DNA of 64,000 bases. Origin: Thuidium tamariscinum (lineage: Eukaryota; Streptophyta; Bryopsida; Hypnales; Thuidiaceae). The notes under the pieces were generated by a model. That model saw only the letters and a program-made list of their open reading frames with translations, ran no database searches and was not told where the DNA came from. Both the position numbers and the translations under genes were made by a program. Each line of letters begins with the position of its first letter. Position 1 is the first letter of the stretch. Shown one piece after another: positions 17,378 to 54,132 of this stretch. Where the stretch lies: NCBI GenBank assembly GCA_947034885.2, contig OX344758.2:24207067-24271066 (forward strand). Reading direction: 5' to 3'.

Positions 17378-18361
17378 CCCAGTTGACCTGAGAGGGGCTG
17401 ATTTGCACCACTTGCTAATACTGAAGCTCCCCAGAAAGGGGGCTGATTGCACCACTTGCTAGACTGAAGCTCCCTTATGCTGGACACCTCCTCCCCACCT
17501 TCAAGCTCTGGCTGTTGGACTGATGAAAGAGACTGAGCTCTTCATCTGTGAAGCCACACACACAATCTCCAAAACTAAACTTGAACAAGGCATAGTGCAA
17601 ATGCCATTTGAATCTATGAGATTGGAGTTGGAAGTGTAGAAGAAGGAGTTAGCAAAAAGGGACCAACCATTTGGATCGGTTGACTTTTTTAACCATATTT
17701 TAATTTAGAGGAATAAAAGTAGGAAAAAACAAAGAAAAGAATAGTTTGACTTCATAGGAGTTTAATTTAGAGGTTGCTAAATTAGAGGAGAAACTAGAAA
17801 GCTTAGTTGTAGTGGAGTTTGACTTTAGGAACCATTTAACAACTAATTGTTAGATTAGATTATTTCCGGATATTTTATGTTTTGACTTTTAAGGCTTAGT
17901 AGAAGGATAAAGAAGTCCTTTAAAGGATAAGGAAAAACACCCCAAAAAGAAAGAAAAGAAGAATGGAGACTTGAAGAATAAAATAACATCCAAGGTAAAT
18001 TACACATCCCAAAGACACCAACCGGAACAAGAACATTGGAGATGGAGGTGGAGTTGGCGCCACGTGAAGAATTTATGGGAGTAACCGAAGATCTCGAGTT
18101 TGTCATAGGAGAGGTTAGTCTTTGAATTTACCTTTTCAATTATGTTTTTTTCCACAATTTCATTGAAGTAGATTTTAGCTATTAATGCCTGATTTAGATA
18201 GTCAATTAGTAGAGGTAGTTCCTAATAAAAACAGAGATAGAAATTCACACAAGCATCTAAAAGACAATTAAAATCCACGATATTCCTAATTAGACCAACA
18301 TAGAATTGACAAGGAAATCAAGCTTTAGGAATTTAGACATTTGATTAGAAGTAGAAGTAGA
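17378..18361 (+). other. Inner part of unit P next to the CACTA insertion
   Basis: Noncoding LTR sequence of unit P between the Q insertion and the CACTA left end, continuing at 54133. It is weakly similar, in reverse orientation, to 9700-10980 of unit Q. Apart from the block at 18042-18113 I see nothing coding. Confidence 0.5.
18042..18113 (+). other. Short coding-like block with a splice-donor-like end, in unit P
   Basis: ATG at 18042 opens 24 codons (MEVELAPREEFMG...) ending exactly at GTTAGT (18114). It shares MEVEL, REE, G and ED with the 24-codon block of unit Q in the same positions. The CACTA insertion separates it from the end of its LTR. Confidence 0.45.
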
Positions 18362-18392
18362 CACTACTAAAAACAGGGGGTATAAATGACTG
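18362..18392 (+). repeat. CACTA left terminal inverted repeat
   Basis: A 31-bp repeat starting CACTACTAAAAACAGGGGG, directly after the target duplication AGA. It differs from the right terminus by one base. Confidence 0.95.
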
Positions 18393-18990
18393 CAAAAAAT
18401 GACTCAAAACCAGTCATTTCGGACCGAAATGACTAAAAAATGACTTCAGCCCCTGCAGTCACTGTGGACAAGTCATTCTTGAAATGACTCTGGGTGTATT
18501 ATCACCATCCATTTGGGAGTTGGATGAGTAACATATGAAATAGTCTCTTGGGTTGGTCAGTGGAACTTGGAAATTTTGGGAAAAACATGGGCAGCTGACC
18601 TTTTGGGGGGAAATTTCTGAGATGTGGCAGAATCTTCTAGTCATTCTTCAGTTGCGACTCAATCGAATTTCTGCTAACGTGTCCTGCCACGTCAGCCAAT
18701 TTGGAAGTCATTCTTCAGTTGTGATGCAATCCAACTTTTGCTGACGTGGACAATGACGTCAGCGGTTTCAGCATTTGGTGTATAGTCACAATGGAGTTGC
18801 GGTGTAGTAACCCTGGACAGTGCTTGCGATTCATTTTTTAGTCATTTCTGAGTTATTTCTCCGTCATTTTATAGATGGTTTAGGTAACTTCATTGAGTCA
18901 TTTCCTAGTTTTAAGGGCGTTGGCCACAAGTTATACGGGATCCATTTCGAGAACATTATAGTCATTGCATAGTCACAAGCCAGTTCACGT
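18385..18990 (+). repeat. CACTA left subterminal motif cluster
   Basis: Many copies of AAATGACT and its complement AGTCATTT or AGTCATTC within 600 bp of the end, in both orientations. In En/Spm elements, TNPA binds short subterminal repeats needed for transposition; by analogy these are probable binding sites of this element's TNPA-like protein. The right end has a matching cluster. Confidence 0.7.
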
Positions 18991-19326
18991 TAGTTACGAG
19001 TGACTCCACAGATTCAAATTCCTAAGCATCAAGGTCCTCGGGTCACATCTCCAAACTACGACGCACACTTCTAAATGCAAATGCAAGAGAGACTTGTGCA
19101 AGTAATCTGTATCTGAAGTGTCTGAGTAAAACAAAGAAATTCATTTACAAGTTCTGCTCCAAATTCCATATAAGGCTAAGTAAATGTGGTCCCTGAGATA
19201 GGGAAATCCACGACTGCAATTCAGCCTTCCCATTTACAATAGAAGTCTAAACTCTAAACATATAATACTTCTACAAGTGCTAGTACAAGGAACTAGGCCC
19301 TGCCCAAAAAAACCAGATGCTACCTC

Positions 19327-22300
19327 AAACTGTAATCTTGAGGAATTTTTGGTTCCACATTGTAGAAGTGCCCTTCACATCATCAAGCTTCTCTTGATCA
19401 TCTTCAGCATTGGGAAACATGAGCGCCACCCCACCATGCATAACTTCCTTTACGTCAACCTTGAACCACGTCTCAGGAATTTCTCTGCAATGGAACCTGT
19501 GCTTCCCGGGTATACCAGAGATCTTGCCCACTACCACTTTTTGCCTTGTTGACCGTGGATTTATGAGAAAAACTTCATCTCCGATCCGATACTGCAACAT
19601 GGAGACGAATTAGCTAGAGTGCAAGAAAGCATAAATCACATTGGTATATATTATAACACTATTGGTTGATGACTTCCACATCACTGGAATGTGACTAAAA
19701 CATAATAGAAAGTTCACTTCTGCATGACTTCTGTGCACACGGTAACTGTTGTTTCACTTCCGTGCGACTCCACGATGAAGTGTGCGACCCAAGTCTCACC
19801 CTAGACCGTTACATTGAATGGTATGAGCACATGTACCAACAAGAAGGTCTTCGCACTATTGAATGTGGTTGGAAGAGCACCAACTTGCAATCCAAGGTCA
19901 TTCCTAAATTGCAGAAGCAAGTCATACAATATGCAATTCTACACTTACGCTTTAGGGTTACCTACCTCCTCTTAGGCTTCCGGTTTACAATTGAGGATAC
20001 TTTTACCTGGATAATGCCCCAAATTGAATGCGTATACGGAATCTGTGGGGCACATTTGAGTCTAATCTAAATGAAACATTTTAGACATAACTACAACATC
20101 ACTGAACAATGGGTTAGACACCTTACAAGAAAATAAGTTCTATAGCCAAGTCGCGTCAAAGTCGCTGCAGAAACCACAACTTAACTTCAAGAGGACTACA
20201 CTACAACTAGTAAATGACTCAGTCGAGCTAGGATACAACTAGTGAATGACTTAGTAAACAAATAAGACCATGCTGCACTTCACAGTTGAAGCAACACACC
20301 TTCTTGGTGGAGGGTGTGGAACCTTTTTTCGGAGTTGTGGATGTAGGGTTTGCAGGCCTCATCCTTGCCTCCCGCTTTTGCACCTTGCCCTATGCACACA
20401 TTAGCACATAATCAGATTCAAACATGAAGTGAAGGTGAAGGACGCCTTCACGTATGCAACGCAATGGTATGCTAGTCCCCTCACCTTCTACAATATCAAG
20501 GAACTCATACGCGTGTCCATTCCACCGTCTCTGTAGCATCTCTGACATAGAGTCGTTGACAACTTCGGAAAATTTTTTCCGAAAAGCTGGAACATCTTGG
20601 CACTGTTGCAAAGCCTCCAATAACGGCCACAAATATCGTTTCAAGTACTCTTTATCATCTGCCAATGCGCACATCTACTTCACGTAGAAAGGGATACTGA
20701 TGATGATATTAGCCTCTGGGTTACACCCGACCCTACTTGCCTTACTATCCACAATGACAGTATTGGCTGCGCAAAAACTAGGCCATCGAGCATAAACGAA
20801 CTCTAACTGCTTGCCCCACTCAAATACACTACCATCTTCAACACCAGCACTCTCAGAACTTTCAACATCTTCACCTGACCACGTGAATAGTAGTTTTACC
20901 GTTACCCCCTTCACCCCACCCAACATTGCTCCCACAACGTCATCCATATGTTCTCTACTCCCGCTTCCCCAAAATGCAACAACGAAGCTATCAAAGTAGC
21001 GAGAAAGGAACGATTTCAGCCAAGGCTGGTAAACTATTCTTCTAGTCGCAGTTTGTGTGGTGCTACGAATTCGACTGTTTGGATTCACTTCTGAAAGCAT
21101 ACTGCAATCTAACAAGGTTCCATGCACATTGAAAATAACTAATTTGAAATGAGAAGTGTCCTGCAATGCAAGTAAGAGCCTAGAAGCACTTGAAGGTCTC
21201 ACCTCACTCGACGTGTACTTCAAAACGCCGGGTGGGGAAAATACCTTCATTGGTGACTTCGACGGTTTCGTACTTTTTTTCCCAAAGGGCGACTCCAAGA
21301 TCATGGGTTCTTCAGCCGACTTCCCCTGTTCAGACAATCTTGCAATGACATCCTCAGACGCCTTCCCTCCCTTCTCTATCAGCTCAGCGGCCTCCGTGTC
21401 TTCGTTCTTCCTAGGGCTGCCCTCGCCGTCACTGCTGGCCGGTGAAGCACCACCACTGCTGGGCGTGCGATGGCCTTCCTCTTCTACATCAACGTCCTCT
21501 GCCTCACTGTTGTCGGCTGGCGATGTCGTCTCCACAACAATTGGACTTGGGTCCACTTGTAGTGTGACCTCTTTTGGTGGTGTCCTCTTCTCGTCATCAA
21601 TTGGTGGAGGGACTTCAACCACGGAGGCAACATGCACTTCAGGGGCCAGAATTGCTGTGGACTCTACGCCCACCTCGTTCATGCCCTCCGCGCATCGCAG
21701 CGGAGGTGCGTCGTTAGGCAGGTCGATTACGGGCTCTGACAGAATTCTCTCGCATTCTGCTCACACTTTGCTTGAGATGGGCGAAGTAATGATGCCTACT
21801 ATCTGCGTAGGAGCCAGTTTTGACTCAGACTCCGACAACGTGATGTTCCTAGCTTTGACCATGAACTTGCTATCACATTTCTTCACTGCTCCAATACCAT
21901 GCCCTTCCTTCTCTTTTGCAAAAGTACTTCCTGTCCCTCCTCCGGCCCTTACTTTTTTCTTAGACGTCGGCATGAATCCGCCAGCTTGATGATTAGGCAA
22001 GTCTTGAGACCCTTGGTTCTCCAACGCTGATTGCCCTATGGAAAGACTGCCTTCATCATGTTGCTTGGCTTTGCCTACATAAGTGGCAAACATGCTGCGC
22101 AATTCGTCTATTGCCGCACCTTGGGCTTTGGAGTTCGCTAGGAAGTGGTCGATCTTGACATCCACATCCTTCTTCCACGATTCCATAAATTCCCACTGAG
22201 AACCCAAAACCGATCCTACCAAAGAATTAGACCTTGGAGAATTAACAGTAGAGGGCAAGGCCGAGTGCCAAACAACTCCCCAAAAACAGTACGTGCCACA

Positions 22301-23773
22301 CAGACGTCCGAATTATGTTTACTTCATCATATTATAGCTAGTAATTCTGGGTCATACATCAAGACATCTATTGCCACATATCAAAATACTAGAAGTCATC
22401 CACACCTAAATCAAGACATACTCAGACTTTCCTTGTCCTCACATGGCAAGCGGAAATCCCCCAAATCAGATGACCATCAATAGAAGGGTTTGAGTACTTC
22501 GACATGCCATAAGGTGAGCATAAGGGACTATAGACACGGAAAGAGGACCTTATAATTGCACCAACTCATACTCATGTTATCAAGGAATAAGGGGAATTAA
22601 ACTAAAACGTGACTTCACATTCACTACTATTTGACTACAGAATGACTCAAGTTTCACTTTATTACAACTGAAGTTTTACTTCATCGCAACTGAAATGTGA
22701 CTTAACGTTCAGTACTATTTGATTACAGAATGACTCAAGTTTCACTTCATGACAACGCAAGTTTTACTTCATTGCAACTAAAATTTGACTAAGAAATACT
22801 ACATATTCACTGTATTATTGACAGGACCTTGTTGGACTCACACTTACCTGTCCTGGAGATTCGCTTCCTCCACTTGCACGCCTTGCCTCAACGAGCTCAG
22901 TAATGCCCGCACTTGTTTCCCCTCCCTACACATATCAAGGGATTAGGCTACTAGATTTGTTTTGATGCCCAACATAGAAACAAATGTTGCTATCTTCGCA
23001 CAAAACGTTGACAACTAAAGTAGCTCAAACACTAACTCTATTGGAAAGTAAGCGTACATTGAGAAAATGAACACTTACCAATACACCTTCCCTCCCTGCC
23101 TTTCCTTTCCTCCCCACGAGTGTGTAATGCTTCACACTCTTCCGTGCCTTGGCCATCTTTTGCGCCTTCAGCTTCTGTGCATCCATATTCCAATAGTCCT
23201 TCAGTCGATCCCACTCTGGTTCGTCAATGTGAAGGGGAGCTCTGTCAATGCCTTTCAAGTAAAGGTTTTTCAAGCGAGACCTCTCGGATTTCATATACCT
23301 CATCACTGAAGTTCTGAAACCTAACATGTTGAGCAGATTCCCGAGATACTCAAACTCATTGTCGAGGGCAGCTCTTAGTTTCTTCAACGTATGTGGCTGG
23401 TGCTTCTTCCAAGACACCACACTCATGTCAAGGCATTTTGGCACCAAATCTCGAAGGCACTCGTCCCAAGCATTCTTGCCTTTACAACTAGCATCCACTT
23501 CCCCGCCCTCAAGTACATACACGCGGTTCGGCTTTGTTCTTGTTGTAGCGCGTATACGACTGCCCAAATCATACTCATGTTTTTGCTTCCTCCTGGAGAA
23601 GCGGTCTTCGGTGTCTTGAGATGCAAGAAGTGCACCTTGTAAGCCTGCATTCTACATGGGCCATGCCCCCGGTAAAGATGTTGGACCGGTCACGCTCCAA
23701 GGAGCTACTGCAGGTTGGGATTGACTGAAGACATAGTGGCCCGGGATCCAGTGGAGTGCAGGTTCGGCGTATT
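19327..23773 (-). CDS. TNPA-like accessory gene with FCP1-like phosphatase domain (3' part)
   Basis: Minus-strand gene of the CACTA, here from unit T leftward. (a) Up to 23079: Transposase_24-like domain, with the conserved pattern of a basic helical block, the PEWDRLKDYW motif and a Lys/Arg-rich KARKSVKHYT segment, ending at GTAAGT. (b) 22925-22848: short exon with AG and GT borders. (c) About 22275-20390: coiled-coil-like segment, Lys-rich segment, long acidic Ser/Pro-rich linker, then an FCP1-like domain, all in one frame but with a TGA near 21760 and a TAG near 20676. (d) About 20391-20301: basic linker. (e) 19600-19330: C-terminal domain beginning after TTGCAG (YRIGDEVFLINP) that resembles the tail of plant TNPA-type proteins. 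The two in-frame stops suggest decay. The exon model is mine and untested. Confidence 0.7.
20570..21151 (-). CDS. FCP1/NIF-like HAD phosphatase domain, catalytic motif degenerate
   Basis: Within the TNPA-like gene. The domain follows the FCP1 order: LVIFNVHGTLLD (DxDGT position, both aspartates replaced by N and H), then the YQPWLKSFL block, VVAFWGSGSRE (the usual W-S/T-S segment), a TWSGED block, and NTVIVDSKASRVGCNP matching the DDS...NP motif. It continues past a TAG near 20676 in the same frame into EYLKRYLWPLLEAL, a normal end for FCP1 domains. FCP1 enzymes dephosphorylate the RNA polymerase II C-terminal domain. Loss of both DxD aspartates predicts no phosphatase activity, so a binding role is more likely. 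It is probably a captured host domain. Confidence 0.7.
22590..22800. repeat. ~110-bp tandem duplication in an intron of the TNPA-like gene
   Basis: Two tandem copies containing TACAGAATGACTCAAGTTTC and TTTTACTTCAT, lying between two exons. They carry the AATGACT motif also found at the element ends. Confidence 0.7.
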
Positions 23774-24071
23774 GTGAGTGCTCCTAACTCCACCCTCGAG
23801 CTAAGAGTTTTTCACACGGGTCCTGTGTCTAATTGAGTTTTCTTTCTAATTGGGTGAAAAAGAAAGCCTTCCAAGCAATGAACTCTTTTAGTCACGTCTT
23901 TTAAGTGTTTCTAATCTAATTTTGTGGTTATGATTCGATCTTTTTTAGTCTAATTCAACCAAGTGACCCTACTCTATTCTCTAGCTTTGTCTAAATCTAA
24001 TTCCAAACATTTAGTAAAAAGAAACTTAATAGTAAAACGATGAGAATGAAAATCAAATGTGAGCGGTTTAC

Positions 24072-24167
24072 CTCCTCTGCGTAAATCTCCATGGTCCCGT
24101 CGTCAAACATCATCATGTGTAAATATTCCCCTACGACCTCGCCATCGAAATCATCCCGACTCTCCAT
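24072..24167 (-). other. Short coding-like block with a splice-donor-like end, in unit T
   Basis: 32 codons (MESRDDFDGEVVGEY...) from ATG at 24167, ending exactly at GTAAAC. It differs from unit S's block by very few residues, while the AT-rich sequence around it has many changes and indels. Confidence 0.5.
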
Positions 24168-24862
24168 CTAATCCATAGTAATTTCCCACAACTGTTGGTA
24201 AATTTTCTCCTAATTAAAAGAAACCACTGGAAGTTATGTAGGTTCAAGTTAATTGCACATTCTCTCTTCAATTCCTAATTTATTGGTAATTGGAAAATGT
24301 CGCAATATTTTGAATCTCCTAAATAGTTTAAATGATCAATGGAAATTCTATCTAATTGTTAGTATTTTTATTCTTAGATTAGCAAATTAATTGAATTACG
24401 AATTTAATTTTACCTGACTTTGAAATAATGAGTGGTTCTTTTGTTTTCTTTCTTTTGGCTTTCGTGAATTAATTAGAATTGGGGTCTTATCACCAAACTT
24501 AATCAATTCAATTTCTTGGTAATTCCCAACGAAATTGGTTGTCAATTAGTTTGTCTTTTTAGAATTAATTTAATTAAAGAATTGCAACCAAATCTTTTAT
24601 AATCCAATTAATTTTAATTTCTTTTAAATTCCTAAAGAAATTGGTTGTCAATTTGTCTTTTTTAATTTGGCTTATTAGGATTAATTTGATTAAAGAATTG
24701 CAACCAAATCTTTTATAATCCGATTAATTTTAATTTTCTTAAAATTCCTAAAGAAATTGGTTGTCAATTTGTTGTTTTCCTTTTGGCTTATTAGGCCTAA
24801 TAAAACAAAACTAACAAAATCCAAACCTTCTAAGAATCTAATAGCCAAAGAATGTAGAACAT

Positions 24863-26661
24863 TGTCGTAGCACAAGGAAGCACAAATCCGTCTGTAGGTG
24901 TTAATTTGGCGTTAACACCGTTCAAATGACTCGTGTATCGTTCCCACAGGATTTTACGTAGATTCCTCAAGATATCCGGAATAACAGGATGCGGAAAACA
25001 ACCCCAAGACAACAGTAACCGGATTCCTAACCGAAAACTTCCTCACAACATCCGCATTCCTTTAGATTGCCTTTCTCACCATTCAAACATACTTTACCAC
25101 TCTCACAACAACCTCCAAACAGGGGGGAGTGCCCAAACTCTGTACCTTCCCCTATCCGGACTCACAGTATCCGACTGGGCGGATTAGGAACCGAAAGGAG
25201 TGCCCAAACTCTGTACCTCTTCCGGATCCGGTTTCCGGATCCAATCACTCAAGTAACAAATGAAGTTTAGCCTCTGTATTAGAGGGGTCCGCGGTTGGCA
25301 TTTAGGAAGGATGCGTTGAATCCTACCCTCCTCAGGATTATAGTGAATGGAGTTCCACTAAAAGAGAAAAATAACAAAAGACATAAAAGAAATAGGCTGC
25401 AAGTTCCTCCTCACAACTAATCCGGATTGCAATCCCAACTAGTAGGTCACTCAGGAAACCCCTACAAACCCCACATTACTACAATGACAGACTCACCCAA
25501 ACTCAGTTCCTAAGGCTTAATCTAGGAGCCAGATAACTAGGGGATCCTAACTGTCTGCACATCCCTCACTTCCGGTTATAGTAGGACCTCAACAACACGT
25601 CAATTGGCATGCGCCCACTCTCCTAGCAGAACACACCCAATCTAAGAGCGGCTTTCCCACACAGAAGCCTCCAAGTGACTTCAGCAGCTAGACTTCAATC
25701 CTAATACACCAGTAGCCTCAACCAAATCACTTCAATTTCCCGGAACCGGATTCAGACAAAGTCTGGGGGAGACACCTCATCCAAGCACCTGCAAACCCAG
25801 CTACCTCGCACTATCCAATGGTTCTAGCATTGCACGGCATACCAATCCAGAGTCGAGACTTGTTCAGACCAACTCTTAGAAAGTAGAAATCTGGAAATCA
25901 GATTGCAAATGAAAGGAAAAACAGAAGTAGGAACACCCGGGGCAACCAACTAACAGCCACCCCTAAATACCAACCCAAGGGAACCCTAAAAGCCCCAAGG
26001 GAACAAAATCAGAGGACAAGAGAATGCCAAGTGGCATTCCTTATCCACAAAAGTCACTTTCCTATCCACCCAACTGGACCCGAAAAAAGTGGATCTCAGA
26101 TCCAAAAAATCCGGATCTGACTGACCAGGTGCATTCTAAGTTAAAAGCACCTTGCTAACTGCTTTCTACCTACTAGAAAGGTAACTTTCCACCTTTTCCA
26201 CTAAGTCTGCTCCTCAAAATTCTCTACCTACTCTACTTTCTATTCCTAACTACTTCTTCATCCGCTTTTGGGGGGAATCCGCATGCTTGGCGGCTCCCTT
26301 GCGTGTTGGCTGTTTCCTACTGGTGGAAACCTTTGTCGACGCAGCTGCTTTGCCCTTGGAAGGCGTGGCAACATTCTTACCCTTCCCCGCAGATTTCGGA
26401 GGCGTGATTTCCGCCGAGTCTGACAGTTCCGGTTCCGGTTCCGAATCCTATCCGGATCCCGACATTTCCGGTTAAGTTGGGAAACATAGTTTTCCTCCCT
26501 TAACCAATTTATCTCAATTGGATTTCTCCAATTCCCACCTTTTTCTAATCTTACTAATTTTCCTTATTTTTGATCAAAGAATCGAAAAATTCATCTAAGA
26601 TTAGCTTCCTTATTCCTAATTCTATAATAAATATTAAAAACCTGTATTCTAGGTTCCCACA
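24863..26661 (-). repeat. 3' LTR of the gypsy element
   Basis: 1,799 bp, nearly identical to the right LTR. Next to it (26662-26675) is a purine-rich minus-strand stretch, AAAATGGGGTGA, a plausible polypurine tract. The end reached by the minus strand (TTGTGCTACGACA) closely resembles the 3' end of LTR unit E3. Confidence 0.95.
26287..26475 (-). other. Remnant of the family-1 LTR-borne ORF tail inside the gypsy LTR
   Basis: Read on the minus strand this part of the LTR encodes an acidic then basic tail that includes SEPEPELSDSAEI and later KKQPTRKGAAK, ending in a basic run before a stop. The 3' end of the E3 LTR-borne ORF has the same layout (GKKQPVRKGASP). The right LTR has the same block at 34984-35172. 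So this short LTR looks like a deletion relative of the 3.6-3.9 kb LTRs. It is a fossil remnant. Confidence 0.5.
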
Positions 26662-26723
26662 TCACCCCATTTTCAAATGTGAGCGTCCCCGTGAACACTA
26701 GACTAGTATTTTCAATATGGATC

Positions 26724-28817
26724 CTAATACTGATCAGGATCATCCTCATCCGGATTGGAATCCGTATCCGAGAATGATTCTAGATCATAACGCTTGACCC
26801 TGGATCCATTGATCCGGGTATCAAGCCATGTTCCCTGTAAGTCTTCAAGCTGGAGAGAGCTATTAGAGAAGATCTGACTTACTCTGTAGGGTCCCATCCA
26901 CCTTGTATGAAGCTTACCCGGAAACTCTTCATGACGGCTGTCATAAAGCAACACCAATCCACCTTCCTTCACACCATGATCCTTCGGTAGCCTTGCATCA
27001 AAATCCTTCTTTCTCTTGTGTTGGACAGATATGGTCCTCTCCAGGGCGTCTCCTCTTGCTTCCTCCAGATCTTCGATTGCTAACAACCGGAACTTAGGAT
27101 CCGGATCTGACCTTCCTCTCCTGGATGCCATAACTCTCAACGTCTCGATCTCCATCTCTATCTTGTGAAGTGCTGCTTGTCCAAAAACAAGGAAGAATGG
27201 GCTTCTTCCAGTTGTTGACTTCTCCGAAGTGTTGTACGCATGAACTGCAGATGGTAGTTTCCTATCCCAATCCGTCTTGTGTGCGGAAACCATCTTGTTC
27301 AAGCTTTTCCCAACAATCCCATTTACTCTTTCCGTAAGTCCATTCGCCTTAGGATTGTAAGGGGTTGTCTTCCTATGCTTAATCAAGTAAGTGGATGTGA
27401 TGTTCTCAATCACATCATTTAGGAAGTGGGTTCCTCTATCACTGACCAGCTCCAAAGGATGCCCAAAACGCATCATAATTTCCTCAAAAAGAAAAGAGGC
27501 TGCTGTAGAGGCATCATTCTTCCTGGTTGCTCTAGCTTCCACCCACTTGGTAGCATAATCCGTCGCCAAGATGATGTACCTCTTCTTCCGGGCGCTGACC
27601 GGATTGATAGGACCAATGAAGTCAATCCCCCACTTCTCAAACGGAGCAAGTGGTATGATGGGAGTGAGTGGCCAGTGGTTTCTGAAGGCAGGCGCACCCG
27701 TCCTCTGACATTGATCACAACTTCCCACAAAGGATTTGACATCCCGGATCATCGATGGCCACCAGTATCCGGAAGTTCGGATCCGGTTGACAGTGGTGAT
27801 GGCGGCAAAATGTCCTCCTGAGGATCCGGAATGGAGAGCACTCATCACTTGCTTCCTTTCCTTCTTCTCCAAGCACCTCCTCAGCTGGTCATCTGCCCCC
27901 ATTTTGAACAACACCCCATGGATCAAAGAATAAGGTGCCACTTTGTGTTGAAACACAATTTTCTCTTCAAGGGAGTATCCATCCGGATATTTACGACTCA
28001 ACAGGTAGTCAATAATATCCTGGAACTCTGAAGACGTATCCCCTTCAATGTGGAATACTGCAGCATCTTTTACAGATGTGGTTCCGGATTCCGGTTCTTG
28101 GAAACCCTCATCCGTGAACTCATCCGGAAACTCTGCTGTAATCTTTGTTGCGGCTTCCAGTCCTCTCATCCGGGATAGGAAATCAGCATTGGCATTCGCC
28201 TTGCCTGGTTTCACTACCACCTCGTAGTTGAACTCCTGCAACAACAATATCCATCTAGCTATCCTTCCGGATAGATCCGGTTTATTCACTAAGTACTTAA
28301 GGGAATCATGATCCATATGGAAAATGACTTTGTATCCCAAAAGGTAGTGCCGGAACTTCTTGCAAGCATAAACCACAGCAAGGGCTTCCCTTTCAGTTGT
28401 GGTATACTTCCTCTCAGCTAGACTCATTTGCCTACTGGCATAGTAGATAGGACACTCATTCTTTTCCTCAGACTGCCAAAGAATGGCTCCTAAACACCAT
28501 CCGGATGCGTCTAGGGTTACATGGAATTCCTGTTTCCAATCCGGGGGAGATAGGATAGGAGCCTTGACTAATCTCAACTTCAAATCCTCAAAGGCTCTCT
28601 GTCTCTCCTCAGTCCAGATGAACTCTACTTCCTTTTTCAGGAGTTTGGTAAGCGGAATAGCCAGTTTGGCATAACCCTCAATGAACCTCCTATAGTAACC
28701 AACACATCCTAGAAATCCGCGGATTTCTCTAACACATGTGGGAGGAACCAGAGCTAGTATAGCCCTGACCTTATCCACATCAACTTCCAATCCTCTTCTG
28801 CTGACCACATGTCCCAA
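26724..28817 (-). pseudogene. Gypsy pol: late RT, RNase H and integrase (fossil)
   Basis: 697 codons. In order: the end of RT (GFLGCVGYYRRFIEGYAK), RNase H (FHVTLDASGWCLGAILWQ ... YTTTEREALAVVYACKKFRHYL), the integrase H2C2 zinc region (HSGSSGGHFAAITT ... CDQCQRTG), and the integrase core (GIDFIGPINP, TDYATKWVEA, HPLELVSDRGTHFLNDV, PYNPKANGLTERVNGI), then a GPYRVSQIF tail and an acidic C-terminus. No chromodomain. This is the longest intact stretch of the element; the polyprotein as a whole is broken. Confidence 0.9.
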
Positions 28818-29255
28818 CAGAATCCCTGACTACATTCCCAGGAAACACTTACCCGGATGTAGTTTCAATCCGGTTTCCTTGCATCGGATGAAGGTCTTCT
28901 CTAGGAACTCCAGGTGCTTGTCTTGCTCGCTAAACACAGCAAAATCGTCAATAAACACCTCCAAGAAATGTCTTAGGAAATCCCGGAAGATATCCATCAT
29001 CAACCTTTAGAAAGTTCCGGGTGCATTGCACAATCCGAATGGCATCCGGTTGAAAGCAAATGTCCCCCACTCCGTGGTAAATGTTGTCTTCAGTTGGTCT
29101 GCCAAACGGATAGACACTTGGTTGTATCCGGAAAATCCATCTAGGAAGCTGTAGCATTCCTGACCAGATACGTGATCTAGGATTATATCTGTAAATAGAA
29201 GCGGAAAGTAGTCCTTCTTCGTGGCAGCATTCAGCTTCCGAAAGTCTTGACAAAC

Positions 29256-30713
29256 TCAGATCTTCACCTTCCCATTTGCTCCCACCTTTTTAGGAACAAC
29301 CACAATAGGTGAAACCCATTCCGAGTTGTTAACCGGATAGATGAATCCGGCTTCCAACAGCCTGTCAATCTCCTCCTTCACCATGAGTGAATACCTTGGA
29401 TTCAGCCGGTATTGACGTTGCCTGATAGGAACAGCTCCCTCAACTAAGTCAATCCAGTGTTCCCCTAGATCCGGTGGGATCCCACCCAAATCTGAGGATG
29501 TCCAAGCAAACACATCTACATATTTCCTCAACAACCGAACATAGTTCCTCTTCTCTGTTCTGCTAAGAGATTTACTAAGGAAAAAGGATTTTCCTGGTTC
29601 AACCTCTACCTTCTCATAATCTGAAGGATTGACTATGTTCTTAATCCGATCCGGTTCCAGTTCCTCCGTCTGGGATTGGATCTCACTCCAAGGAAGATCA
29701 GACTTCCCTTGAGTCAAACCAACAGTGGATAAGCTGCCTTCTTGAATCTGCTGCCTTATCCAATCTATTGTCATAGGAACATTGGCTTCTCCAAGTGATC
29801 GGTCCTCCAACTGACCGGATGCGGATCCTAAAATCGGATCAGGAACTTCCTTCTCTTCAGGCTCGCCCAACTCTAGGATTGGCTTTGGAAATTCGAAATC
29901 CATTTCAGTCATCCCATCAAAATCCTCCACAAAGTTGACAGATGCGGAAGAATCCTCCGGATCTGACCAATCAATGGTGTACCCATCCGAATCACTTGTT
30001 TCTCCCATGTGTTCCTCATTCTTCCAAGGAATCCGGATACTGGGTTGCCCCATCACGAACTCCTTGTGTCCCCAATCTACAATCACCCTTGCAGCATACA
30101 ACCAAGGTCTTCCAAGTAGCAAAGGAAATGGTCTTCCTTTATTTACCCGGATGATCACAAAGTTCAGGAGGTAGATCTCTTTCCCGATCCGAGTTGGAAC
30201 TTGGGAAAGTCTTCCAACCGAAACAACACGAGATTGATCTGCCATCCGCAACACTTGGTCTGTGGTTTCAAAGGTGGTGAATCCTAAGTCAAAGGCAGTA
30301 TCCTCTAACATTAGGTTCACTCCAGATCCTCCATCCACCAAAACTTTGGGAATGGAACATCCCTCAATCTCCACAACCAACTCAGGTGGTCCATAATCCT
30401 CCACTTGTGCAAAGTTGACTGCCATTGCAGGAAGCTTAAATCTTCTCTTCCTCCTCTTAGTCCATGCATCCCGGATTAGCTTTTGATAATTGACATTATC
30501 ATGAAGAAGTTGCCCAATTGTAACATTGGCCTTCTGATCCTTGATGTCCTGCAGAATGTCATACTCATTCTCTCTTCCCTCTGGTCTAATGAAAACTGGG
30601 GTGTCATTAAACCTGACTTTCCGCGGTGAGGTTGGGAAACCGGAAACCGGAACTTCTTCCTCCCGTCGACTGGATTCGGAATTCCTAAGTTCTCGTCTCA
30701 CCTCCTCACTCAC
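29256..30713 (-). pseudogene. Gypsy protease and start of reverse transcriptase (fossil)
   Basis: 485 codons. Retropepsin-type protease around VLVDGGSGVNLMLED, a long acidic linker, then the start of RT (QYRLNPRYSLMVKEEIDRLL, IVVVPKKVGANGK). It lies between the gag region, with the MITE in between, and the RT/RNase H/integrase stretch. Confidence 0.88.
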
Positions 30714-31030
30714 ATCCTCGGAAATCCTCTTGGGCTGTACCCCATTTTCCGAGGTTGCTATGGGTATAGCAATTCCGGATTCATCTGAGTGATTAGAATC
30801 ACTGGAATCCGGTTCCTGCCGTCTCTCTCTACTAGCAAGTCTACTGGTCAGGGTTGCTTCCGTCGCGTCACGTCCGTCCGTCAGGATGTCCGTCCGCTGA
30901 CGTGACGGGGAGCCGAGCGTCTGTCAGGATGAAATTCACGACAGAATCCGCGACAGAGGATGAAAAATCGTCGACAGGGCCGTCGACGAGGCCGTCTACC
31001 GTCGACCGGACCGTCCAGGATAGAATCGAA

Positions 31031-31224
31031 CCGATTAGGGCTAGCCGGCTGTAAACTTCAGAGCCTTGTAACTTTTGCAAAAAGTCTTCAAATTGGGCAA
31101 ATGAGATGTTTTTCGGCATCTACAGTTTCTGTAGATGCCGAAAAACATCTCATTTGCCCAATTTGAAAACTTTTTGCAAAAGTTACAAGGCTCTGAAGTT
31201 TGCAGCCGGCCAGCCCTAATCGGT
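31031..31224. repeat. ~95-bp-arm palindrome in MITE copy A
   Basis: Two near-identical inverted arms meet at CTACAGTTTCTGTAG (centre about 31127). An RNA from either strand would fold into a long, almost perfect hairpin, a typical small-RNA precursor shape. Confidence 0.9.
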
Positions 31225-31555
31225 GGACGGCCTCCTCGACGGCCCTGTTAACGGTCGACGGCCTCGTGGACGGCCTTGTCGACGGTGGACGGCCTCCTCG
31301 ACGGCCTTGTCAACGGTCGACGACCTCCTCGACGGCCCTGTCGACGGTGGACGGCCTCCTCGACGGCCCTGTTAACGGTCGACGGCCTCGTGGACGGCCT
31401 TGTCGACGGTCGACGACCTCCTCGACGGCCCTGTTAACGGTCGACGGCCTCGTGGACGGCCCTGTCGACGGTGGACGGCCTCCTCGACGGCCCTGTCGAT
31501 GGTGGACGGCCTTGTCGACGGTCGACGGACTTCATCCAGGTCGTCGACGACGCCG
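31225..31555. repeat. GTCGACGG minisatellite in MITE copy A
   Basis: Tandem, slightly varied units of roughly 33-36 bp made of GTCGACGGCCTC and GACGGCCCTGT. Very CpG-rich against the surrounding DNA. Copy B has the same array, with a different number and order of units, at 39995-40325. Confidence 0.9.
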
Positions 31556-31795
31556 TCAGCATTCAGGACGGCCTCTGACGCGTCATGACATCCGGACGGG
31601 AAAAGCCCACGTCACGTCGGGATAGACAACCCTGCTACTGGTCCTAATCTTACGTCTATCTAATTTCCTGGTCTTGGTGGAGCTACGGGTTTCTACTCTA
31701 TGTACTGACTGTCCTACTCTATCCAGCAACCCCACCCCTAAGGGTCAACTTTCCGGGTTCTCAATTCCGGATTTGGATCCGTAGTTGAGTCCGGT

Positions 31796-33460
31796 CTAAT
31801 CTCTAGGAGGGACCTCTACTTGTTTATACACTACCCGGGTCTGTGGTGCTTTTTGACACTGAGATGCCATGTGCCCATACTCTTGGCAATTCTGACATGG
31901 TAGAATCATAGGCGCCCCTTGCCCTGGTCCTTTGAATGGACAAACATTGGCATAGTGATCCGGGCTACCACAAATGAAGCAAAACCCAAATGGTTTTGAT
32001 TGAGGCATCATGCCCGGATGAACAGACCTAGGAACAACATTAGCCCTTACCAACTACTGAGGTGCTCTCCCTCTGCCGTAGGTAGGCTGGACTTGGAAGA
32101 CAGGATTAGTATCCTCCACTTCCTCATCATCCGGAATGGTGACATACACCTTTCCTTCCGGATTCACGTAATGGACCCGCCTCACAGGGGGTCTATTACA
32201 CTCACTGGCAAAGTGGCCAGCTTCTTGGCACCTTGGGCACCACACATTTGCTCTGCTTGTTGGCACGGTCTTCCTCGGGTTCCGGTTTTCCGCCAAGTTG
32301 ACCTTGATGGCTTCAAGCGACTCCTGGATGCTCTTCATCAGCTTCTTTGAGTCGTCTTGCTCAACTTTCACCTTCACAACGCCTTTACCTTTGTCTGATT
32401 TGGAGCTCTTGTGATGATGACCGTGTCTATGTCGGGATCCGGATCCGGATGCAACTCCAGGATCTGAATCCGAACTGTCTGACTGGGAAGCGGGAGTGGA
32501 AGATCCACTGCTCGAACTTGAGCTGCTGGAGTACTTTCTCCTTCTTTTCTCCTTCTTGTAGTGCTTCTTGCTCTTCCTCTCACTTCTCTTCAAAGCATTC
32601 CGGAGGGATTGGGCAGAATCCTCATAATTTTGAGCGGCTTCCATGGCTTCCCTCAATGTGGCTGGGCGTGCTTGTCGGATCTGGAATCCCATTTCTTCAG
32701 GAAACCCTGCAACATACCACTCAACCTGCACACTAGGAGCGATTTTCGTGGTCAACTTTAGGATCAGGGCCTTCACTCTCTGCCCATACCTCCTAACTGA
32801 CTCATCCGGTTTCATGGTCATCCTACTCAATCTTCCTAAGGCTCTTGCTTCACCTCCAGCCTCTCTAAACGTCCTGACGAAAAGATTAGTAAGCTGATCC
32901 CAATCATTCCGGGTAATAACCGGAACGTCTTGGTACCACTTTAGTGCTTCTCCCTTGAGTAGACCCTGGAAAATGCGCTGCTTTGCTTCAAAGTCCTCCT
33001 GATTTGCTGTGGCAATGGACTCAAATTCACAAAGCCAATCGTCAACATCCTCACTTCCATCTCCTCTAAATTTGCTATACTTCAGACGTGTGGAAGGAGC
33101 CATGACAATATGCTCAGATTCCGACTCAACTCGTTCCTCTTCCTCGTCAGACGAAACCGAAACTTCCCCAGTCAAAACCGGGTCCGGTTCTGCAATAGGA
33201 GTTGTGTAAACTTCCCCTTCTACTGCCTCTACTACAATCTCTTCCTGGACTTCAAACACAGGACGCTCTCTGGGGTCTGTATTGACTCTAGGTAACTCAT
33301 GCACAAGTACCTCTCCTCTCCTAATCCGGGCAGACCTTCTCTCAGAGGTTCCTCCTTTCTCTGTCCTTTTCATGAGGATATCCTCTTCCGTAACTATATG
33401 ATTTCCCTCAAAGAGAAAGAATTCTAACAGTCTGTTCGGCCCAGGAAAGAATCCAAACAA
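31796..33460 (-). pseudogene. Gypsy gag region (fossil)
   Basis: The retrotransposon gag domain includes WLCEFESIA, GEALKWYQDV and LFVRTFREAGGEARAL, followed by a Ser/Lys-rich low-complexity stretch. Three CCHC zinc knuckles follow (CPRCQEAGHFASEC, CFICGSPDHYANVC, CQNCQEYGHMASQC). An acidic N-terminal extension precedes the gag domain. The reading frame is broken. Confidence 0.9.
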
Positions 33461-33533
33461 CTTGTGTATAAATACTGACTACGAATTGGCAATCCTAAGA
33501 CTTCCCAGAAACTCAAAGTACCTAGACTAAAAA

Positions 33534-33551
33534 TCCCCGGCAGCGGCGCCA
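33534..33551 (-). promoter_or_regulatory. Gypsy primer-binding site
   Basis: Minus strand TGGCGCCGCTGCCGGGGA, 8 bp inside the 5' LTR. It nearly matches the tRNA-Asp-type primer site (TGGCGCCGTTGCCGGGGA) common in Athila-like plant elements. Confidence 0.8.
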
Positions 33552-33559
33552 CTTCTTCG

Positions 33560-35358
33560 TGTCGTAGCACAAGGAAGCACAAATCCGTCTGTAGGTGTTA
33601 ATTTGGCGTTAACACCGTTCAAATGACTCGTGTATCGTTCCCACAGGATTTTACGTAGATTCCTCAAGATATCCGGAATAACAGGATGCGGAAAACAACC
33701 CCAAGACAACAGTAACCGGATTCCTAACCGAAAACTTCCTCACAACATCCGCATTCCTTTAGATTGCCTTTCTCACCATTCAAACATACTTTACCACTCT
33801 CACAACAACCTCCAAACAGGGGGGAGTGCCCAAACTCTGTACCTTCCCCTATCCGGACTCACAGTATCCGACTGGGCGGATTAGGAACCGAAAGGAGTGC
33901 CCAAACTCTGTACCTCTTCCGGATCCGGTTTCCGGATCCAATCACTCAAGTAACAAATGAAGTTTAGCCTCTGTATTAGAGGGGTCCGCGGTTGGCATTT
34001 AGGAAGGATGCGTTGAATCCTACCCTCCTCAGGATTATAGTGAATGGAGTTCCACTAAAAGAGAAAAATAACAAAAGACATAAAAGAAATAGGCTGCAAG
34101 TTCCTCCTCACAACTAATCCGGATTGCAATCCCAACTAGTAGGTCACTCAGGAAACCCCTACAAACCCCACATTACTACAATGACAGACTCACCCAAACT
34201 CAGTTCCTAAGGCTTAATCTAGGAGCCAGATAACTAGGGGATCCTAACTGTCTGCACATCCCTCACTTCCGGTTATAGTAGGACCTCAACAACACGTCAA
34301 TTGGCATGCGCCCACTCTCCTAGCAGAACACACCCAATCTAAGAGCGGCTTTCCCACACAGAAGCCTCCAAGTGACTTCAGCAGCTAGACTTCAATCCTA
34401 ATACACCAGTAGCCTCAACCAAATCACTTCAATTTCCCGGAACCGGATTCAGACAAAGTCTGGGGGAGACACCTCATCCAAGCACCTGCAAACCCAGCTA
34501 CCTCGCACTATCCAATGGTTCTAGCATTGCACGGCATACCAATCCAGAGTCGAGACTTGTTCAGACCAACTCTTAGAAAGTAGAAATCTGGAAATCAGAT
34601 TGCAAATGAAAGGAAAAACAGAAGTAGGAACACCCGGGGCAACCAACTAACAGCCACCCCTAAATACCAACCCAAGGGAACCCTAAAAGCCCCAAGGGAA
34701 CAAAATCAGAGGACAAGAGAATGCCAAGTGGCATTCCTTATCCACAAAAGTCACTTTCCTATCCACCCAACTGGACCCGAAAAAAGTGGATCTCAGATCC
34801 AAAAAATCCGGATCTGACTGACCAGGTGCATTCTAAGTTAAAAGCACCTTGCTAACTGCTTTCTACCTACTAGAAAGGTAACTTTCCACCTTTTCCACTA
34901 AGTCTGCTCCTCAAAATTCTCTACCTACTCTACTTTCTATTCCTAACTACTTCTTCATCCGCTTTTGGGGGGAATCCGCATGCTTGGCGGCTCCCTTGCG
35001 TGTTGGCTGTTTCCTACTGGTGGAAACCTTTGTCGACGAAGCTGCTTTGCCCTTGGAAGGCGTGGCAACATTCTTACCCTTCCCCGCAGATTTCGGAGGC
35101 GTGATTTCCGCCGAGTCTGACAGTTCCGGTTCCGGTTCCGAATCCTATCCGGATCCCGACATTTCCGGTTAAGTTGGGAAACATAGTTTTCCTCCCTTAA
35201 CCAATTTATCTCAATTGGATTTCTCCAATTCCCACCTTTTTCTAATCTTACTAATTTTCCTTATTCTTGATTAAAGAATCGAAAAATTCATCTAAGATTA
35301 GCTTCCTTATTCCTAATTCTATAATAAATATTAAAAACCTGTATTCTAGGTTCCCACA
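33560..35358 (-). repeat. 5' LTR of the gypsy element
   Basis: 1,799 bp, the same length as the left LTR with about three visible base differences. It starts on the minus strand with TGTGGGAACC at 35358, directly beside the target duplication AACAT. Confidence 0.95.
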
Positions 35359-35829
35359 AACATTCCAAAAGACCGAGAACAATTTCAATAGTGTTATTCC
35401 AAATAAATGAATTTTTTATTCCCAAAGGTCAACCCCCAAGAATAAAGAATCCCACTCTATAGTGTTATTCCAAAGAAATTAGTTTTTTAATCTAATTTGT
35501 CACGGTTAGGAATCTCACAACCTTAATCTCCCACCTAGTTCTCTTTCTTTCTCATTCTTGTTGTGCAAGAGTTGTTGCAATTTTGAAAGTTAGAAGATGG
35601 CTATGGCGGTTGAGTTGTCAATGATGGAAGACCCTCTTTAGATGTTGCAAATTTTGAGTTTTTTGATGGAAAATTGAAAGGAGAGGTTGGAAATTTCCCT
35701 TCTAATTCTTTTTAATTTGGTCAAAAATTTCAATGTTTGCAATGTCAAAAGATATTTTGTAATAGTTGAACTTACTTGTAAAGCGTGAGTTGTGTTTTCC
35801 TTTTGAGTTCTAGTCTTAGTTATGTGACT

Positions 35830-36010
35830 TGAACTCCTAGACTCCCAAATTGAGCTCCTGGACTCCCAACCGAGCTCCTGGACTTCCCACCCGATCTGTT
35901 CTGGACTGCCGCTCCTCCCCAGGCTCCCGCTCCCCTCCACATGGCGGCCGGTGGTTGGTCGGAGGGGGGGTCGTGTACTGGCTCCTGTTGCTCCTTCGGC
36001 TAGACTGCTC
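35830..36010 (-). repeat. GC-rich repeat cassette of unit T
   Basis: Repeats of GAGCTCCTGGACTCCCAA type followed by a GC-rich stretch with TCCTTCGGGCTAGACTG twice. It lies about 0.83 kb downstream of unit T's TATA box. Its sequence is unrelated to the cassette at the matching place in unit S, although the rest of S and T aligns well. Confidence 0.65.
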
Positions 36011-36826
36011 CTTCGGGCTAGACTGGCTTCTAAAATTCACTCTTTTTTGGGATTTTTAACTAATTTTTGGATAACTAAAACTAACTAATCTCTCAATTTT
36101 CTTGGGATTTTAGGCTAGACTAACTCCCTAACGTAATCAATTGAACTCTCTAGGAGTTTTGGGCTAAACCAAACACGAAGAGGGTTTTGACACACCACTT
36201 AATGACTCATCATTTTGGTAATCCCACAACGTGTCGCTCTAATAGAACAAGAGAAGTGGTTAAGGTTTCCACTGGAAATGCTAATAAAGGGTTTGTGAGT
36301 GAGATATCAAGTCTTCCCTTATTCTTAGCATATAACCAACCTTGTACTATCTTTTCAACTTCAATCGTTTAATTGAAATTATTTTTACATAGGTTGTCAA
36401 ATTTCTTGTAAAAGGTTCGAAGCTTCGCCGTTTAAGAAAGTTCCAATAATATTTTGAGTACTTTAATCGCAAAAGGAAGTGCACATGACAGTGCTTAACC
36501 GAACTTTCACTTTAAGTTCTCAAAATTTCCAGTATTTCAAGGTTTTGCAATCAAAGGAGGTACACATGACAGTGTTTAAACCGAACTTTAATGCTTCACA
36601 CTTGAAATTTCCACTTCAAGTAGCCAACAAAAGATTGAAGATTATCCTCAAACGCAAACTAAAAGTCACTTGAAGGGGCCCTAAGCCTTCAAATTCCAAC
36701 AAAATACATAAAAACTTGGCCAAGTCGTTGGTCCAAGTAGTGCTCCAACCACGCCGGTAGCACTTAAGTGAAATAACAAAGTGTCGGTGCGAGAAATAAG
36801 GGTACTGGCAACCTCGAGGGGGGCCC

Positions 36827-36833
36827 TTATATA
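36827..36833 (-). promoter_or_regulatory. TATA box of unit T
   Basis: Minus strand TATATAA in GGGTATATAAGGGCC, identical to that of unit S. Confidence 0.7.
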
Positions 36834-38395
36834 CCCGTGGCCGAGCCCCTCTCGATAATTGCATGTGAACACACTTTGTTACTTCCTACCCTAAACTACC
36901 TTAATGTAATTCCAAAATATTAGTTGTTTAATGGTGAAAATTTCTAAAAACATCCCCATTTGGCAAAAGAAATCTTGGCCAAATCAAATCCAAGATCTTA
37001 ACCCAAAATATTTTGAAATTAACCCTAATTTACGTAGATATTTTGCAAATTAATCCAAAGTCATTTCGAAAATTGTCTTTCTTTAGCCCAAAGATGGCTT
37101 TTTACGCAAGAAAGAGATCTTGACCAAATCCAATCTTTGATTTTCCAAGAGATATTTCCAAAATCACTTCTAATTAACCGCAATTAACGATTAAAAAGTC
37201 AAACTAAGAGGTGACCCTCTCTATCTTTTAAGGAACAACTCGAAACGGAAAACCGTCTACGCCATTGTTTTCAGAAGACCCCAATTAGCCTAAGGGACCC
37301 CTTACCCCTCACTCCTAGGCCATTTGCGCGCCCAAATTGGAATTACGGTAACTCCAATTAAAAGTCAAAAATCTAACTTTAGGATTTGTGCATTTCGATG
37401 AATCTGTCAGGCCAGGGTCGTTAGGAATGTCCGTGAGAGTAAGGAATGACTCCTTATTTGCGACAATCGGACATCATTTGCTCCTGATACGCCGGTCAAC
37501 CCGCCACCAACTTGTAACTTCCAGTGAATTTCGATGTCGATGCCGGTTTTGGTCGTTGGGAATGTCGGAATGTCTTCAAACTTGACCGGGCGCTTATTAA
37601 GCACACAAAAACCTATCCTAATTTTTAGTGAGATTTTACCGCATCATGCATAATTTCTATGATTTTACGAACATTTCTATGTGCGGTTGACTTCCCATGG
37701 AGTCAACGTGAAATTTCGGAAAAATCCGAAATAAATTGGGTAACATCTAGGGCACTCCTAGATTCTTGGTGTAAGTCCCACGCAACCTTGCACCTTTCTA
37801 ATTTTAGCAATTTGGAATTACTTTGCCCAATTGGACAATTTAATTCCCGATGCTCAGGAATCTTGGACAATTGTTTGATTCTTGTTCACTCCTGGCATGC
37901 TCCTACCCTTGGAACACCTCTCTGTAGTCTTCAATCTCCAATCCTCCATCTTTTGTCTCATGAAGTTCGAATTCTCCAAATCCATTGTAGTGGTTTTACC
38001 TTTAAATCCAATTTGTCTTAAAACTGAACTTAAGCCTTGGTAACTCTTCCACGCTCGTAGTAGACTCTTTTAGCTTAGTCAGTATGTCATGTGCATCCTT
38101 AAAAGGTTGACTTTGCACAGACAATTGCTAGGACTGACTAACTCTCTATTCCTTATTTCTCTCGGGATTAATAATTCTTCACCTATACCTGCTTTGGAGA
38201 CTTAGAATGATTCCAATGTCTAGTAATAGGAATTTTCCACCATCTAAGTTGGTTTTCCACCATTTTGGCATAGACTGACACCAAAACTCCCTGAACACTC
38301 TTTTTATGTCTTTTTCTTGAATATTTTGACTAATTTTCGCTATTTAATCACGAAAAATGGACCCAGAGTCTTGAGTGCCATCTCGAGGGTTCACA

Positions 38396-39114
38396 TGTAT
38401 GCCCCATCAATCGGAGGAGGAGGTGGTGTTGCTGCTGTGGCCTTTACTAGCGATGCCTTGACTACCACGGTCTTCTTCCGTTTTGTTCTGCGGGGGTCCA
38501 CAAGAGGTTCTTCATCCTCCAGGGACACCTCCTCCTCTGATGAGTCAATCATATGACGCTCCAGGTCTGCACATGCAGTACACTCATCCACATGCTTATT
38601 TAGGCTCATGCACAAATTGTCTTGACACTAAATTCCTACTTTGATGAACATGCTGAATGAAACCAAAAATGAAATGCAATGGTTTCTATGTGAATCTTCA
38701 AACCCTAGTCCGAACCCCAAATGACTAGAAAACATGATGCCAATTACCTCCGGCAGGTGCCTCCGAGTTGGATTGCCGCGCTACATGTTTACAAGCAATA
38801 GCGAGATTCATCATACTTGTGGCGATGGCCTTGTCATCGGACTTTGTCGCCTCCGAGGAAGAATCACGTGCGCTACTCATTACGCGGTTCTCCGTCATTT
38901 CCTCACGCGAATCCTCTTCTCCTTGCCCCTTGCTTTGCTGGCGTCCTCGAAGGCCTCGCCGCCTGGAACTCCTCCGCAAAGGTCTTTCGTCCTTCCTCAC
39001 CGTATCCTCTTTCCTAGGCGCTTGAGGAGCCGGAGGTTTTCCGCCCCTACGCTGCCAACCCTCAACTTCGAATGAAATCACACCCTCCCTCCCAGCGAAC
39101 AACAGCACATGCAA
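38396..39114 (-). CDS. TNPA-like gene of the CACTA, 5' part
   Basis: Two exon-like blocks on the minus strand. 39114 to about 38748 encodes a very basic, disordered region (RRSSRRRGLRGRQQSKGQ) and a helix with MMNLAIACKHVARQ, ending at GTAATT. About 38620-38396 encodes LNKHVDECTACADLERHM, an acidic run, a KRKK cluster and PPPPPIDGAY. Unit T then interrupts, and the frame resumes on its other side (AEPALHWIPGHY at 23773). The start codon is not clear. No known domain is recognised in this part. Confidence 0.45.
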
Positions 39115-39904
39115 TCGACAGGTATGTGCAGGAAGGCGTGGCGAGAATGCAAAACGAGAACGCGAAAAAGAGAAGCGCCAAACTGGCTAGGGTTTCCTCA
39201 ACAAGGGAGACACAATGCCTGCTTACGCAGAGGGATCCTACGTGGCCTCTAGTAATTATTGCTAGTTTCTTACCCTCTACTTCCACACAACTGGGACTCT
39301 ACTCAAATGAGACTTACGAATGACTGAAACTTAGTTGCTCTTGAGATTGGAGACATTTTATACAACTAACATGTAACTCAGTAATGACTATCGAGACACA
39401 ATTCAACAACAATTGTATGTGGCACTAAGTTCGACCCAAAAAACCCTAGTACAGCGCTGCCTCTGCACCTTGGGATCTGTGCCATAGTCAATGCACTTCT
39501 ACAATGATTCTGGACGCAAGTGTTCCTAGACTCTAACGTCTGTACCAATGCTGAAGACCAAACTTCCTCAGACTTTGAACGTGCAGTTCCATACTCCCAT
39601 GGTATCAGAAACAAGAAGACGAGGAACCATGACGATGGCAATGGGGACGCTTGTGAAGACAAAGTGGGGACAGTCACGGCGATGTTAAACGGAAACTTAC
39701 AGGATTGGGCACGCCGCAAAGGACGGATCGAACCTTTTCTGCAATTCTTGTACGTTCTGGTCCCTTACAAGCTCATACGCTCCCTTCTCTGGAGGCGAAC
39801 TCTCCATCGGGTCATGCACCGTACTTGATCTATAATCTACTTCTCTCGCAAAACTTCTCAGTGTGGTTGAAAAGGAAGTGTGACTCTCTCCGATGCCTGT
39901 AGAC

Positions 39905-44895: not shown

Positions 44896-45230
44896 GGCAA
44901 CTATCCGGAAAACTACCTCACTTCTCTCCTAGCCGCACGTCCCGTTCCTCACACACACTCACAACACCAATCCGCCCGTAATAACCACCTGCACAAACGC
45001 ACACACACTCCTCCAGCGCACACCAGCGCCTCAGCGCACAGTCTGAGACCCGCGCCGCTAACAACTTCCCGCTTTGACAAACACCAGCTGCTAACACTGA
45101 CAGTAGCGACACAGAAAAGTGCGCCACAAAACACACGCGGAAAACTAACTCACAGAAAGGCGAAAAACGTTGAGGGTTGAAAAACGCACAACAAAGCGCC
45201 TGAGAGCAAATGGGCCAACTGAAAATGTCA

Positions 45231-45242
45231 GGCCTTATATAG
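45231..45242 (-). promoter_or_regulatory. TATA box of LTR unit E2
   Basis: Minus strand CTATATAAGGCC, at the same place as in E0 and E1. Confidence 0.65.
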
Positions 45243-54129: not shown

Positions 54130-54132
54130 AGA

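Follow-up and report, generated by a model that had tools for sequence, protein, structure and literature searches.

A CACTA transposon clade in Thuidium tamariscinum whose accessory gene carries a predicted FCP1-like pseudophosphatase domain

The 64,000-nucleotide stretch of Thuidium tamariscinum contig OX344758.2 analyzed here (positions 24,207,067 to 24,271,066, forward strand; hereafter the window) contains a 35.8-kb CACTA (En/Spm) element, complete but decayed, that is one member of a clade bearing an FCP1-like domain. In this clade a TNPA-type accessory gene, lying beside the TNPD transposase gene, appears to have gained a domain of the FCP1/NIF fold, which probably now serves as a catalytically dead docking module for a host protein. 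The domain has been kept by selection though its catalytic residues are lost, which argues for docking rather than enzyme activity.

The element has the features of the CACTA superfamily: terminal inverted repeats (TIRs) starting with CACTA, a 3-bp target site duplication (TSD), a tnp2-type transposase, and subterminal short repeats. The hexamer ATGACT occurred 12 and 9 times in the two terminal kilobases versus 0.63 and 0.59 times in 500 mononucleotide shuffles of the same kilobases (largest shuffle, 4). TNPD lies at the right on the plus strand, with reading frames that we read as shifted in this copy, and the accessory gene lies at the left on the minus strand, such that each gene runs toward the nearer end of the element.

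The host genome (363 Mb, 19 contigs) was searched with the FCP1-like part and the Transposase_24 (T24)-like exon A of the accessory gene. The FCP1 part had at least 113 matches at 39–100% identity, which merged to 107 sites, and exon A had 120 matches, which merged to 114 sites. Ninety-nine T24 sites were at 50% identity or above; an FCP1 site lay downstream on the same strand within 3 kb in 84 of these and within 10 kb in 96 (median spacing about 1.5 kb). Among the more divergent T24 sites, 4 of 15 had a downstream FCP1 site, and for 7 of the 107 FCP1 sites no T24 match lay within 10 kb. Random placement of the sites, using partly estimated contig sizes, gave 0.5 (maximum 3 of 200), and the opposite-strand count within 10 kb was 0. 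Exon A was present in the upstream DNA of nine of ten copies; the tenth (L005) had an exon A match about 6 kb upstream. The initial annotation had named two findings that would overturn it, a missing NIF match and a one-off insertion; both were looked at and neither holds, the latter being ruled out by the genome matches and the T24 sites with a downstream FCP1 site.

Two further complete elements have both genes: C3:37313682–37329492 (TSD GCT) and C7:23853718–23869903 (TSD GTA). Each had the four TNPD parts on the plus strand and exons A, C and E of the accessory gene on the minus strand, with exon C frames of 595 and 605 amino acids (aa), one value to each element. Across the genome, TNPD copies at 70% identity or above (150 of 636 TNPD candidates were scored) had a divergent FCP1 site within 30 kb in 82 of 103 cases and within 15 kb in 68, versus none of 47 less similar copies within 30 kb. 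Other arrangements of TNPD and FCP1 within 30 kb numbered eight among the close copies and two among the less similar ones. Because of this difference between close and distant TNPD copies, the FCP1-like domain is taken to mark one CACTA clade. An alignment-based search of viral and genome contig collections returned no relative. Five divergent T24 sites (38–45% identity) had no detected FCP1 match within 10 kb: C6:1248015, C6:1263192, C5:17148223, C9:21681148, and C11:13775503. These are possible outgroup elements for dating the gain of the domain.

Membership of the domain in the FCP1/NIF fold family was indicated by both sequence profile and fold. Pfam NIF (PF03031) matched the open reading frame (ORF) at 20675–21760 (minus strand), residues 206–359, at 22.9 bits (cut-off 21.8; E 7.6e-5), bearing out the NIF assignment first made from the sequence. 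All nine relatives scanned were above the cut-off (32.1–41.1 bits). The window's E-value is modest, but the relatives' scores and the fold concur, and a chance match was ruled out. The fold comparison was led by UBLCP1, SCP, Tim50, CTDNEP1, and Fcp1, and TIGR02245 was the top NCBIfam match in 10 of 10 proteins, weakly and far under its cut-off. Pfam scans of the window exons and the nine relatives found no ubiquitin family, and hence no counterpart of the N-terminal ubiquitin-like domain of UBLCP1.

The catalytic motif DXDX(T/V) of FCP1-type phosphatases was absent. In its place, all 12 aligned proteins, window included, had NVHGTL (10 proteins) or NVQGTL (2 proteins), and among 30 loci NVHGTL or NVLGTL was read in 29, the remaining locus (L015) being matched only ahead of the domain. 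The first Asp of motif I, the position of the nucleophile in FCP1-type phosphatases, is thus replaced by Asn and the second by His or Gln, so that the full FCP1/NIF motif order described by the initial annotation breaks down at motif I. Since both aspartates are replaced while the other parts of the domain persist, the domain is most likely a pseudophosphatase. Its capture from the host had also been proposed: a gain by the CACTA family is supported at the family level, and the donor gene was not found, a PF03031 search of the host genome (150 of 466 candidates scored, read without regard to introns) yielding one clear SCP-like gene (L049).

The assignment of exon A as Transposase_24-like comes through relatives. 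Of 21 aligned exon A members, nine had a PF03004 match at E ≤ 0.1 (best 1.7e-6), and this domain was the precomputed annotation of 1 of 35 relatives; the window copy, for which this family had been suggested, had no match.

Purifying selection acts on the FCP1-like domain across some 100 copies. The median dN/dS (Nei-Gojobori; pairs with dS outside 0.02–1.5 or fewer than 40 codons dropped) was 0.16 for this domain (355 pairs; 5–95% range 0.13–0.47), 0.11 for the T24 part (60 pairs), 0.29 for the coiled-coil stretch (242), 0.56 for the linker (311), and 0.16 for exon E (264). In stop-free copies at dS 0.3–1.2, the values were 0.16 for the FCP1-like domain (76 of 153 pairs; maximum 0.26), 0.61 for the linker (140 of 253), 0.08 for the T24 part (40 of 55), and 0.19 for exon E (104 of 210).

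The initial annotation proposed that the captured domain may reach the transcription machinery. That proposal needs one change: with both catalytic Asp residues gone, binding rather than dephosphorylation would be expected of the domain. The T24-like part and the coiled coil may bind the ATGACT-rich ends as a multimer; the repeats are present and their binding by the accessory protein is putative. The dead FCP1-like domain would then hold a host partner protein that is most likely phosphorylated. FCP1 and SCP bind the C-terminal domain (CTD) of RNA polymerase II (Pol II), and for this reason alone the CTD would be the leading candidate partner. Such docking would hold the element within transcribed chromatin or draw in host factors, whose phosphorylation it would leave intact. 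More tentatively, the clade may use the domain as a pseudophosphatase that reads host phosphoproteins, the Pol II CTD perhaps among them, and that, joined to the DNA-binding helper, steers expression, targeting or anti-silencing. FCP1-fold domains may also be a tool to which transposons have turned more than once. The latter idea comes from another multicopy NIF family of the host genome, with 28 loci (L051–L078; e.g., L051:1414–2259 and L055:1414–2211), that is possibly another transposon with a related domain. Its motifs are DLNG, WSSM, and VDDSP, and in 27 of 28 loci motif I reads DLNG; acidic and unassigned exons flank the NIF domain, and the copies compared were 96–99% identical across 3.3–3.5 kb.

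A related proposal is a substrate trap or dominant negative, which would bind a substrate of FCP1/SCP, phospho-CTD or another, and keep host phosphatases away from it. The Asp to Asn change at the first position of motif I fits a trap, and human Scp1 D96N is reportedly one for CTD peptides, a literature search having found no such paper. The second Asp is changed as well and the binding is purely putative, which leaves a trap rather unlikely. We hold in similarly low regard a structural spacer or dimerization module that has no host partner and serves accessory-protein folding or contact with TNPD. Constraint on the domain is the same as on the other conserved parts, and Spm TNPD and TNPA interact according to the available portion of PMC1636069; the constraint nevertheless covers the former active-site loop NV(H/Q)GTL, which a mere spacer does not need.

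Along the minus strand the order was as first annotated, from a Transposase_24-like domain through a coiled-coil-like stretch (called by eye) and an acidic linker to an FCP1/NIF-type domain. The frame is not the single continuous one then claimed, being interrupted by introns, by in-frame TGA and TAG codons in exon C and, probably, by nested insertions that split the gene. The predicted A–B and B–C exon junctions are both in phase 0, over GT..AG introns. Counting only rows extrapolated by six residues or fewer, GT directly followed exon A in 12 of 12 copies, AG preceded exon B in all 21 rows, which came from 18 copies, GT followed exon B in all 17 read (two further rows end past the fetched piece), and AG preceded exon E in 23 of 25. 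Two neighboring genes, one for a T24 protein and one for an FCP1-like protein, would account for the location of the two parts in separate exons, for protein-database relatives that are unspliced pieces, and for the missing AG at the predicted exon C start in 11 of 28 loci. A query of 937 joined residues retrieved only P0001–P0003, and no annotated protein with both domains. The phase-0 joins, the conserved borders and the close same-strand spacing speak against two genes, which we consider unlikely. A real and recurrent fusion of T24 and FCP1 parts in one predicted protein is supported by the same order and spacing at about 100 sites, the conserved borders of exons A and B, the complete elements elsewhere, and purifying selection.

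An active phosphatase, working through other residues on the Pol II CTD or TNPD, is less probable still. The fold and later motif regions are kept, and some HAD-fold proteins work with altered motifs. The replacement of both motif I Asp residues in every aligned protein counts against activity, as does Trypanosoma brucei Tim50, which lost its activity when both were changed to Ala (accessible text of PMC8346121). CACTA elements with captured gene fragments are described in the available part of PMC8978399, but a functionless, passively captured fragment is rejected by the dN/dS of the domain, with exon C open frames of 557–610 aa in 11 of 29 loci, and deserves practically no weight.

Several observations weigh against the docking interpretation or the gene model beneath it. 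Three of the 99 close T24 sites had no detected FCP1 site in range, and 21 of the 103 close TNPD copies had no detected divergent FCP1 site. AG was found at the predicted exon C start in 17 of 28 loci, and this border therefore varies across part of the family. The fold model was weak (predicted local distance difference test 57.8; predicted template modeling score 0.59), a single Foldseek match reached E ≤ 0.001, and a single-sequence search of the PDB had no significant match (UBLCP1, E 0.33). Since UBLCP1 and Tim50 were among the nearest structures no less than the CTD phosphatases, Pol II as the partner is a guess. Finally, the outward direction of the genes places the repeats at their 3' ends, and the promoter model of Spm cannot be transferred unchanged.

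In the window copy, the accessory gene should be dead, given the in-frame stops in exon C and an N-terminal part that is probably cut off. This part probably lies about 14.7 kb from the rest of the gene, and the tblastn matches that place it were weak singly (best E 0.001, others 0.11–0.76). An extension of exon C to 20300 was ruled out: open frames of other copies stop soon after VEGEG, where a donor is conserved, and the end was set at 20485 for these reasons. The TAG at 20390–20392 is accordingly more likely intronic than a sign of decay. A short exon D of ambiguous frame may follow exon C; the phases of exons C, D and E cannot be reconciled in a simple way, and the C–E join is putative. 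Of 30 loci, 26 had a match to exon E, which was split into two pieces in one locus and partial in another. The TNPA-like C-terminal domain initially seen here was not confirmed: the exon is conserved in the family, and Pfam gave no TNPA/TNP1-like or other transposase family for it in the window or in 10 further copies.

Table 1. Features of the CACTA element in the window (positions count from the first letter of the window).
Feature	Position	Strand	Remarks
CACTA element, 35.8 kb, with nested insertions	18362..54129	.	both TIRs and matching 3-bp TSD
Left TSD, AGA	18359..18361	.	read from sequence beside left TIR
Left TIR, CACTACTAAAAACAGGGGGTATAAATGACTG	18362..18392	+	30/31 bases match right TIR
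Exon E, conserved C-terminal domain, no family assigned	19325..19591	-	matched in 26/30 loci
Exon C: coiled-coil-like stretch, acidic linker, FCP1-like domain	20485..22195	-	end is conserved donor GA(A/G)G/GTGAGG (slash marks the border)
FCP1/NIF-like domain	20603..21145	-	Pfam as far as 20684, remainder from alignment with relatives
In-frame TAG within FCP1-like domain	20675..20677	-	amino acid at same place in relatives
Motif I, NVHGTL (predicted pseudophosphatase)	21113..21130	-	within FCP1-like domain
In-frame TGA in exon C	21761..21763	-	
Exon B, short	22848..22925	-	phase 0, GT..AG; AG and GT borders conserved
Exon A, Transposase_24-like	23079..23651	-	homology extends to 23771
Nested insertions within accessory gene	23772..38441	.	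include long terminal repeat (LTR) retroelement 24863–35358, LTRs 99.8% identical
Probable N-terminal part of accessory gene, split off by nested insertions	38442..38597	-	tblastn, N-termini of T24 relatives
TNPD part, Transpos_assoc	47135..48091	+	Pfam 27.6 bits, just below 27.7 cut-off
TNPD part, Transposase_21	49462..49995	+	Pfam E 6.4e-33
TNPD part, DUF4218	50353..51138	+	Pfam E 2.4e-33
TNPD part, DUF4216	51717..52493	+	Pfam E 1.6e-12
Right TIR	54099..54129	-	paired with left TIR, 30 of first 31 bases same
Right TSD, AGA	54130..54132	.	read from sequence beside right TIR

Other repeats were also present in the window. The nested LTR retroelement is Gypsy-like and young, with LTRs at 24863–26661 and 33560–35358. 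GTCGAC-rich 31-bp tandem arrays, mutually inverted, lie within repeats at 31221–31521 and 40011–40330. Between the TNPD parts, 48301–49000 holds a large inverted repeat that resembles a small hairpin insertion; its 298-nt arms are 86% complementary and lie 104 nt apart. A 3.6-kb repeat occurs at 3381–6989 and 41963–45563 with 86% identity between copies; it encodes a conserved ORF of about 500 aa (4533–6035; 43414–44928), for which no Pfam family was above cut-off in the one copy scanned.

If the docking interpretation is true, these elements would be transposons with built-in recognition of host proteins, perhaps of the transcription machinery, using a phosphatase fold minus its chemistry. 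This would give a testable link from transposon regulation to host signaling, extend the short list of modules known from CACTA accessory proteins, and offer a sizable collection of natural pseudophosphatase domains kept by selection.

Like En/Spm TNPA and other Transposase_24-type CACTA accessory proteins, the protein predicted here is a second element protein beside a tnp2-type TNPD, with a T24-like domain and element ends rich in a short repeat; unlike TNPA, it has an FCP1-like domain. It is encoded divergently from TNPD, whereas in Spm a single transcription unit yields both proteins (PMC1636069, in the part available). Transposition of Spm requires TNPA, which can also restore activity to a methylated promoter, according to the available parts of PMC1636069 and PMC10398659. 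A literature search, with bioRxiv preprints and most subscription papers outside its coverage, found no CACTA element with an FCP1/NIF domain in print. The FCP1/NIF domain in a CACTA accessory protein thus appears to be new, and domain gain by CACTA ORF2 was already known: Peptidase_C48 and Transposase_24 are the additions named in the accessible text of PMC8978399. The Peptidase_C48 elements of that text likewise gained an extra domain in the accessory part, but a different one; here catalytic residues are lost and a whole clade is marked.

UBLCP1 (HAD-IIID1) and the SCP phosphatases, the best structural matches of the FCP1-like domain, differ in retaining the catalytic motif and in lacking transposon domains. 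The L051–L078 family has a homologous domain by hhalign profile comparison (probability 92.8, E 4e-7) and differs in its DLNG motif I, where the first Asp is retained. Fungal Tim50 resembles the element domain in having an FCP1-type fold without the DXDX(T/V) motif or activity; it is a component of mitochondrial import and not a transposon protein, and its domain acts as a non-enzymatic receptor (PMC8346121, in the portion available).
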